NCBI RefSeq assembly: GCF_016342785.1
Contig: NZ_JAEINH010000009.1
Span: forward strand, 62,001-126,000
Direction: 5' to 3'
DNA length: 64,000 nt
Source of the DNA: Sanguibacter suaedae
GTDB lineage: Bacteria > Actinomycetota > Actinomycetes > Actinomycetales > Cellulomonadaceae
The position numbers were made by a program, and so were the translations under genes. Positions 33,844 through 35,350 of this stretch are shown one piece after another (the first letter of the stretch is position 1; each line of letters begins with the position of its first letter). Below the pieces are notes generated by a model. The model worked only from the letters and a program-made list of their open reading frames with translations, was not told the origin of the DNA and searched no databases.

Positions 33844-34383
33844 CTAGCCGTGGGCGGGCGTGCCCGCAGCGAGGTCGTCGACCATGCCCACCAGGCGGCG
33901 GATCGTGTTCATGTTCCGTGCCGTGACCACCCCCAGCGTGCTCGGGAGACGCAGCCGGGACCGGCCCATGCCGTTCGGGTAGTGGACGTACACCTCGCGC
34001 TCGCCGCACACGACCTCCTCGCCGTCGGGTGAGACGACGGCCTCGACGTCGGCCCTGGGGACCGGGTCGTTGCCGACGAGCACCGAGACCCTGGCGCCGT
34101 CCGCGTCGGGGAACGGGATCGCGTCGGCGAGCGCCCGCAGCTCGTTGCCGGTCCGCACGACGACGTCGACGGGCGCACCGAGGTGCTCCCGGAGCGCGGT
34201 CTCGAGGTCCTGGCGCACGGTCGCCGGCGGGTCGTCGGTGCGCAGCACGAGGTTGCCGCTCTGGATGTACGTCCGCACGTCCTCGTACCCGAGCCGGGTG
34301 CACAGGGTCCGGAGGTCGGCCATGGCGAGCCTCCCCGTCCCGCCCACGTTCACGGCGCGCAGGAGCGCCACGACCGTCCCCAT
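33844..34383 (-). CDS. DUF1697-family protein
   Basis: The 179-residue product matches DUF1697: VALLRAVNVGGTGRLAMADL at the start, RTYIQSGNLVL, and GVVTARNMNTIRRLV near the end. The family is cytosolic, of unknown function, and common in actinobacteria. ATG 34383 overlaps the stop of the UraD-UraH fusion by one base (TGATG, 34381-34385), so the two are translationally coupled. Confidence 0.9.
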   Translation of the reverse strand: MGTVVALLRAVNVGGTGRLAMADLRTLCTRLGYEDVRTYIQSGNLVLRTDDPPATVRQDLETALREHLGAPVDVVVRTGNELRALADAIPFPDADGARVSVLVGNDPVPRADVEAVVSPDGEEVVCGEREVYVHYPNGMGRSRLRLPSTLGVVTARNMNTIRRLVGMVDDLAAGTPAHG

Positions 34384-35255
34384 CAGAAGGCTCGGTGGGT
34401 CGAGTACCCGAACGGGGCGAGCAGCACGGGGACGTCGTACCGCGACGTGGCGTCGTCCACCCGGAAGGTCACCGTGACCTCCGGGTACCCGCTGGTGCGA
34501 CCGGTCGCCGCGAAGTAGGTGTCGGTGTCGAGCGTGAGCCGGTAGACCCCGGCGTCGAGGCGCTCGGGCCCGAGCACGGCGGTCCCGTCGTCACCGGTGA
34601 CCGTCCGCCCGAGCGGGCGCCACGCAGCGGTGCCGTCCACCTCGGTGGTGCGCTCGTCGAGCCGTACCGGGACGCCCACGCCGGGCGTGCCCAGCGCGGT
34701 GTCGAGCACGCGTGTGGTCAGGGCACACGGTCCGTGGTCCGTCGGGGACCGCGGCTGCTCGGCTCGCGCCTCCTGGCGGGCCAGGGCCGCCGGGGACCCC
34801 GGCTCCTCCCACATCTGCCCGAGGCGGACCAGGGCGTTCTCCCGGAGCTGCTCGGCGACGTGGGCGGCCTCGGTGTCCGGGTCGAGGCCCAGCCGGCGGT
34901 GCAGCTCGGCGAGGATCTCCTCTCCGGACCGTCCCGCGGTCCGGACGAGGAACACCCGGCCGAACCGTTCTTCGTAGGTGGCGCAGGCCCGCTCCAGCTC
35001 CTCGGCGACGGGCCCGCCCGTCCCGGTGCTCCGTAGCCGCGGGTGCCCGACGAGCGCCTCGTCGACCTCGGCGGGGGTGAGGCCGTCGCCCGCGGCGGCG
35101 GCCGCGTCGAGCAGGTGCACCATGCTCGGGAACGGGGCGTGCGCGGCCACGGAGTCGACCCAGCGGCCCACCGGGAGGGCTGCGGCGAGGGCGGGCCGGG
35201 CGTCGTCGGGTCCGACGTCGGGGCCCAGGTGCAGGGAGGAAGGGGTGTCTGTCAC
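34383..35255 (-). CDS. UraD-UraH fusion (OHCU decarboxylase plus HIU hydrolase) with eroded active sites
   Basis: A 290-residue fusion. The N-terminal OHCU-decarboxylase-like domain (25-150) has GHPRLR (His71) and YEERFGRVFLVRTAGRSGEE, but the stretch that normally holds WSRxEQ between them is missing. The C-terminal transthyretin/HIU-hydrolase domain spans 178-290. It reads LTTRVLD where the family has THVLD, GDDGT for DGR, YDVP for YHVP, and STHRAF for YRGS. Four of the key hydrolase positions are thus altered. GTG 35255 has GAGAGG nine bases upstream; ATG 35264 is too close to it. It probably does not catalyse both ureide steps. Confidence 0.72.
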   Translation of the reverse strand: MTDTPSSLHLGPDVGPDDARPALAAALPVGRWVDSVAAHAPFPSMVHLLDAAAAAGDGLTPAEVDEALVGHPRLRSTGTGGPVAEELERACATYEERFGRVFLVRTAGRSGEEILAELHRRLGLDPDTEAAHVAEQLRENALVRLGQMWEEPGSPAALARQEARAEQPRSPTDHGPCALTTRVLDTALGTPGVGVPVRLDERTTEVDGTAAWRPLGRTVTGDDGTAVLGPERLDAGVYRLTLDTDTYFAATGRTSGYPEVTVTFRVDDATSRYDVPVLLAPFGYSTHRAF

Positions 35256-35331
35256 GGCACCCATCCTCTCGGGAGGGCCGCAAGATGTCGCGCGCAGCGA
35301 ACCCCTGGTCCGCAGCACGGCAGGCATGGTC

Positions 35332-35350
35332 TAAGGTGAGGCTTGCCTTT
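35332..35350 (+). promoter_or_regulatory. DtxR/IdeR-type iron box
   Basis: TAAGGTGAGGCTTGCCTTT matches the TTAGGTTAGGCTAACCTAA consensus at 13 of 19 positions and keeps its dyad. A second, weaker AAGG/CCTT repeat follows at about 35352-35365. It lies about 55 bases ahead of the siderophore-binding protein gene, so the operon should be iron-repressed. Confidence 0.82.

Follow-up and report, generated by a model that had tools for sequence, protein, structure and literature searches.

A gene on the reverse strand of a 64,000-nucleotide stretch of the Sanguibacter suaedae genome (contig NZ_JAEINH010000009.1; hereinafter, the window) encodes a UraD and a UraH domain in one chain and raises the question of whether its product is still an enzyme of urate breakdown, a decaying relic, or a protein that is kept for another use. 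An earlier note on this DNA described the gene as a UraD-UraH fusion whose two active sites look eroded. The fusion is real, since the open reading frame, its coordinates, and both Pfam domains were all verified (Table 1). There is no frameshift or stop inside the gene, and its GC content at the three codon positions is 0.84/0.54/0.94 in one half and 0.73/0.58/0.93 in the other. The protein has the plan of an allantoin synthase, UraD and then UraH in one chain, without the two active sites of that enzyme. The cutoffs of the NCBIfam models TIGR03180 for UraD (97.9 versus 139.4 bits) and TIGR02962, an equivalog model, for UraH (81.6 versus 87.45 bits) are both missed. By descent and fold, the window protein is a derivative of a bifunctional UraD-UraH enzyme; by its defining features, as read from the alignments, it falls outside both of the enzyme families, UraH and UraD.

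Table 1. Features of the fusion gene and its surroundings in the window
Feature	Position	Strand	Evidence or remark
UraD-UraH fusion gene	34383..35255	(-)	GTG start at 35255, TGA stop at 34383-34385; 290 aa (P0001)
UraD (OHCU decarboxylase-like) domain	34821..35207	(-)	Residues 17-145; PF09349, 81.6 bits (cutoff, 24)
UraH (HIU hydrolase/transthyretin-like) domain	34392..34721	(-)	Residues 179-288; PF00576, 83.8 bits (cutoff, 25.3)
GAGAGG, ribosome-binding-site-like	35265..35270	(-)	9 bases before the GTG of the fusion gene; read directly
Codon 182, Arg at first catalytic His	34710..34712	(-)	H in 63/63 other nonredundant relatives
Codon 225, Thr at active-site Arg of DGR	34581..34583	(-)	R in 63/63 other nonredundant relatives
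Codon 274, Asp at second catalytic His (HVP)	34434..34436	(-)	H in 63/63 other nonredundant relatives
HRAF replacing YRGS, residues 287-290 (H287 at Tyr)	34386..34397	(-)	Others: Y in 62/63, G in 62/63, S in 61/63
Shortened loop, HPR to YEERF, residues 74-93, S-x-x-E-Q segment missing	34977..35036	(-)	Alignment, column counts, loop lengths
DUF1697 gene	33844..34383	(-)	PF08002, 128.5 bits; ATG overlaps the fusion TGA by one base (TGATG)
DtxR/IdeR-like iron box, divergent intergenic region	35332..35350	.	13/19 matches to a consensus

The UraH half has lost its catalytic columns. All four changes claimed earlier, namely, Arg for the first catalytic His (LTTRVLD), Thr for the Arg of DGR (DGT), Asp for the His of YHVP (YDVP), and HRAF for the C-terminal YRGS, are borne out by the alignment, and the first three fall at columns that are invariant in the relatives; the sole relative that lacks the YRGS Tyr is a sequence truncated where its locus ends. 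Beyond the catalytic set, the alignment columns also show the losses H272R and F256G. In kpHIUH, the lytic water sits between His7 and His92, the carbonyl is bound by Arg41, and the ring is held in place by Tyr105 together with the backbone of Ser108 (PMC8272043). The accessible part of a study on transthyretin-like protein reports that the H6A, H95A, and Y108F mutants gave no rapid HIU hydrolysis (PMC4324301). The lytic-water, carbonyl-binding, and ring-holding residues of UraH (His, Arg, His, and Tyr) are all replaced in the window protein.

In UraD, the His of HPR and the Glu of the S-x-x-E-Q segment are the residues that we take to be catalytic, following published UraD structures. As claimed for the decarboxylase half, HPRLR is retained, with the His (His71) and several conserved Arg residues in place, and the segment with the Glu is missing. 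The loop from HPR to YExxF spans 20 residues in the window protein, compared with 32 to 49 (median, 39) in 68 intact relatives, which puts the deletion at at least 12 residues, or about 19 by the median. The Glu and Gln are present in 68 of the 69 other UraD sequences, the exception being L041, described below. Further losses in this half are I140N and the replacement of a loop Asn by Cys91. The alignment with relatives, which had been suggested as a check, does not place the missing motif elsewhere in the protein. An Ala-Glu-Gln in the linker (Glu166-Gln167) was considered as a displaced catalytic motif and is taken as chance, since 33% of shuffled linkers contain an EQ pair and the AlphaFold2 model shows little order at this stretch.

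Relatives were sought in 221 genomes of the family, 396 of the order, and 394 of the class, giving matches in 84 (at 1e-3), 57 (at 1e-20), and 18 (at 1e-25) of them, respectively, the window's own genome being included each time. Among the matches listed, the best besides the gene itself reaches 165.9 bits (G167). Ninety-four fetched loci were read residue by residue, the remaining matches being judged by score; 81 UraD and 82 UraH segments passed length filters, and dropping near-duplicates left 69 and 63. UraD and UraH share one open frame in G167, G350, G039, G030, G292, and G673 and lie in separate frames in many other genomes. The fused relatives have the same gene plan as the window protein, at 44 to 57% identity in local matches. 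Unlike the window protein, the UraD and UraH enzymes read keep H/DGR/HVP/YRGS and HPR..S.xEQ apart from single-residue exceptions, for example, HPP in L062 (with the loop otherwise intact), YRGT in L068, and, in four UraD sequences, an Ala at the Ser position. Both lesions together occur in none of the sequences at the 94 loci. A fused UraD-UraH gene from the family (G165, L006) has a frame break in UraD around His-Pro, for which a sequencing error or a mutation is possible, and its UraD was excluded from the UraD set. Within the genus (six genomes), one other genome (G001) carries an intact UraD and an intact UraH in separate frames, together with uricase, an above-cutoff allantoinase, and a PF02738 domain, and the other four have no match at 1e-3.

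The search for orthologues with the same substitutions, also suggested earlier, came back empty in both genome searches and pattern scans. A protein-pattern scan of genome contigs gave 55 pattern matches, none of them a relative. A DNA pattern for the short HPR-YExRFGRVF loop, which demands exact His-Pro-Arg and FGRVF codons and would miss an L041-like UraD, gave eight stretches, each from a UraD gene with its S-x-x-E-Q in place (8/8); these had matched out of frame, with the HPR of L107 outside the displayed reading frame. The collection scanned may leave out the window's own genome or close ones. In the joined and UraD trees, the window protein lies near family relatives (supports of 0.73 and 0.31, respectively), and in the UraH tree it is placed elsewhere (support, 0.44). 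Of the 61 terminal branches of the joined tree, only one is longer than that of the window protein.

The exceptional UraD, L041, is the single UraD of G579, a genome from another family of the order. This orphan (L100:9502-9951, reverse strand) is without the HPR His and without the S-x-x-E-Q segment; it has lost 12 of 28 conserved columns, and its HPR-to-YE loop has 26 residues. Its variable columns score 1.07, inside the range of intact UraD. No UraH is present within the 20 kb read around it, where its neighbors encode a DsbA-like protein, a DUF4328 protein, and a heliorhodopsin (309 bits), and the same-genus relatives of G579 (G262 and G228) have intact UraD. Like the window protein, L041 is a UraD scaffold without its active-site segment; unlike the window protein, it has also lost the HPR His, has no UraH nearby, and belongs to a different family. 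The loss in L041 is probably an event independent of that in the window protein, and the UraD active-site segment has probably been lost at least twice.

A decaying gene and a retained one should differ in where the losses fall. At conserved columns (≥90%), the window protein has lost 19 of 58, 16 by substitution and 3 by deletion. The other UraD sequences, L041 apart, have lost at most 3 of 28 or 29 such columns, and the largest losses among the other UraH sequences are 6/31, in a truncated row, followed by 5/32 and 5/31. The UraH losses are enriched at catalytic columns (4/4, versus 6/26 of the others; p = 0.008). In UraD, all six loop columns are lost versus 3 of the 22 others (p = 0.0002), for a column set chosen after the data had been seen, and the His and Glu taken alone give no enrichment (1/2 lost; p = 0.55). 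At variable columns, the mean log-odds is 1.30 for UraD (others, 1.48, with an sd of 0.30; rank 17/69 from the bottom) and 1.60 for UraH (others, 1.74, with an sd of 0.29; rank 22/63), both of which lie inside the spread of the intact enzymes. The core hydrophobic columns are all still hydrophobic (19/19 and 17/17, or 36/36).

These values were set against a neutral simulation that introduced substitutions only, starting from the present coding sequence, and stopped once changes had reached 16 of the 55 conserved codons. Three mutation biases were used, with 400 runs apiece, under a simple assumed mutation model. Neutral decay that reaches an equal loss costs 0.9 to 1.0 bits per domain, so the ancestor would have started about 2.5 to 3 sd above the intact mean. 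All 36 hydrophobic columns are preserved in only 0.25 to 1.5% of neutral runs, and the GC3 of the gene is 0.938, versus an average of 0.79 to 0.885 across five neutral settings. The absence of stop codons was also considered as proof of selection and was rejected as too weak (P = 0.04 to 0.23 under neutral decay). In this single lineage and against this simple mutation model, the erosion is selective, with the active sites gone and the scaffold kept, and such a pattern fits a pseudoenzyme better than a pseudogene, constraint being judged against the simulated neutral model. An enzyme fold with lost catalytic residues, as expected of a pseudoenzyme, is present, and the constraint seen relative to the neutral model comes from one sequence. 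Against retention, I140N and F256G alter conserved sites radically; moreover, as the searches turned up no orthologue of the altered form, the new state cannot be shown to be conserved.

The AlphaFold2 model of the window protein (78 rows) has a mean pLDDT of 85.7 and a pTM of 0.59, with 195 of the 290 residues at 90 or above. The last two UraH strands are missing from it, the pLDDT being 74 for residues 271 to 280 and 36 for residues 281 to 290, compared with 94 and 82 in the intact control L036, which was modeled with the same rows and forms both strands. The control also has a helix in the UraD loop segment (its residues 77 to 86) that is missing from the window model. The last UraH strands normally provide the dimer edge in the tetramer, an edge that would be altered in the window protein if the model is right. 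In Foldseek searches, the best full-length match is (S)-allantoin synthase 5z5m, with a TM score of about 0.4 and a whole-chain rmsd of about 16, so the two domains are arranged differently with respect to each other; taken one by one, the domains match OHCU decarboxylases (3o7i among others) and structures of HIU hydrolase/transthyretin.

The claim that no uricase gene is near extends to the whole genome. In this 99.59% complete genome, the only transthyretin-family domain is that of the fusion, and there is no uricase (PF01014), no PF02738 domain (xanthine-dehydrogenase type), no allantoinase above the cutoff (best, 218.7 versus 357.85 bits), and no HpxO above the cutoff (best, 195.9 versus 500 bits). 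The subcutoff allantoinase matches are probably other cyclic amidohydrolases. An HpxO-like FAD monooxygenase (G000:C17:133389-134390, L138) scores higher with PRK06753, a hypothetical protein model, where it is also below the cutoff; this flavoprotein was considered as a urate oxidase and rejected on its HpxO score and the better fit of the other model. In a survey of 1,689 species, as far as the available text goes, there were only twelve in which no known urate oxidase accounts for the UraH and UraD present, and the authors blame most of these twelve on gene identification errors (PMC4562309). An orphan UraD-UraH pair would be unusual in itself, if PuuD and HpyO, which lie outside the searched set, are also absent.

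The surroundings of the gene were read for hints of a new role. The one-base overlap with the DUF1697 gene suggests, from the sequence, translational coupling of the two genes. The DUF1697 proteins of five genus relatives have only 37 to 42% identity to that of the window. A FecB-type iron-siderophore operon is located upstream in divergent orientation, and the putative iron box between them is the only site in the window with more than 11 matches, one strand having been scanned; the best sites before the FecB relatives have 14 (G001), 16 (G004), 13 (G005), and 12 (G002) matches. On its side away from the FecB operon, the box stands some 77 bases before the GTG of the fusion gene. It fits that operon, with a possible but uncertain effect on the fusion gene, which is not beside the FecB relatives in G001, G002, G004, and G005. 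As the FecB operon is conserved without an adjoining fusion gene, no weight is placed here on control of the fusion gene by iron.

Several known systems help to place the protein. It shares its domain order with (S)-allantoin synthase (plant TTL; 5z5m), which hydrolyzes HIU and has OHCU decarboxylase activity according to the accessible part of PMC2834698; TTL is active on both substrates, whereas both active sites are lost in the window protein. Transthyretin (TTR) and the window UraH are alike as HIU hydrolase folds minus the catalytic His and YRGS, and they differ in that the window protein is fused to UraD and has no known ligand. The suggested parallel with transthyretin holds for the loss of His and YRGS and fails for the replacing residues: the window protein has Arg/Thr/Asp/His at the HIU hydrolase His/Arg/His/Tyr columns, which do not match the TTR channel residues Lys15/Glu54/Thr106/Thr119, as given in the part of PMC2834698 available, and its C-terminal strands, on which two of these positions lie, are not confidently modeled, unlike those of the intact control. 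The resemblance, on the aligned residues, is in the kind of change and not in the residues. The reptilian cysteine-rich uricase CRUOX, in the text of PMC10517255 available, is a uricolytic enzyme kept and repurposed after the loss of urate breakdown; the window protein would likewise be kept after the loss of the pathway, but CRUOX is a different enzyme and has kept weak activity.

Taken together, it is probable that the window protein is a retained pseudoenzyme, a former UraD-UraH enzyme with both active sites dead that is kept as a folded scaffold. Its ancestor would have been a bifunctional enzyme of the allantoin synthase type, in a host whose genome is now without a detected uricase and the other purine breakdown genes searched. 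At the level of sequence, the erosion claimed for both active sites stands, with invariant UraH columns replaced and the UraD segment bearing the Glu-Gln pair deleted, and no turnover of HIU or OHCU would be expected as both sites are gone. The protein, presumably expressed, would be kept as a folded pseudoenzyme whose well-predicted helical UraD half is most likely the working part, with small-molecule or protein partner binding proposed as its task, and the UraH half would be a transthyretin-type sandwich with altered C-terminal strands and so probably an altered tetramer. The earlier suggestion of a new binding or structural role gains indirect support from the scaffold retained relative to neutral decay and from coding signals that are still intact; neither a ligand nor a partner nor an orthologue was found. 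A more specific version, in which both sites were lost under positive change after the loss of urate breakdown to give a ligand or partner binder, with the two His residues around the lytic water becoming Arg and Asp and the UraD half retained, would repeat in a bacterium the way in which transthyretin arose and is rather unlikely. That the UraH half carries an aromatic or iron-related small molecule as transthyretin does, perhaps coregulated with the siderophore operon via the iron box, is very unlikely: the fold and the altered positions are those of TTR and the box is close upstream, but the residues are not those of TTR, the C-terminal strands lack confident folding, and the neighborhood, not found beside the FecB relatives, may be chance.

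The main competitor of the retained pseudoenzyme is a recently orphaned relic, in which the pathway was lost, selection lapsed, and a functionless open frame is decaying by chance. The genome without uricase, PF02738, or allantoinase, the singleton status of the fusion among what was searched, the 19 lost columns with their three deletions, the long terminal branch, and the unformed C-terminal strands all speak for such a relic, but its scaffold columns are uneroded, its GC3 is still high, it has no frameshifts or stops, and its losses are concentrated at active-site columns, and we regard it as a serious though doubtful possibility. It is most improbable that the protein is a working enzyme that handles HIU and OHCU by substitute residues, or another substrate, via a cluster of Arg182, Asp274, and His287 together with His71. 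His71 and several conserved Arg residues are kept, the linker has its Glu-Gln pair, and the distant HpxO-like flavoprotein could in principle make HIU; however, the His and Tyr mutants of transthyretin-like protein, in the portion of that study noted above, gave no rapid HIU hydrolysis, the flavoprotein falls far below its cutoff and fits another model better, the PF02738 domain is missing from the genome, and the Glu-Gln in the linker has probably arisen by chance.

A limited term search of the open-access literature found no description of a bacterial UraD-UraH fusion that is dead as an enzyme. The textbook example of this fold giving up catalysis is transthyretin, and if the scaffold is truly constrained, the bacterial fusion would be an independent and experimentally easy example of transthyretin's route out of catalysis. 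In addition, urate breakdown should not be annotated from UraD and UraH Pfam matches alone, because PF00576 and PF09349 are passed here by wide margins.
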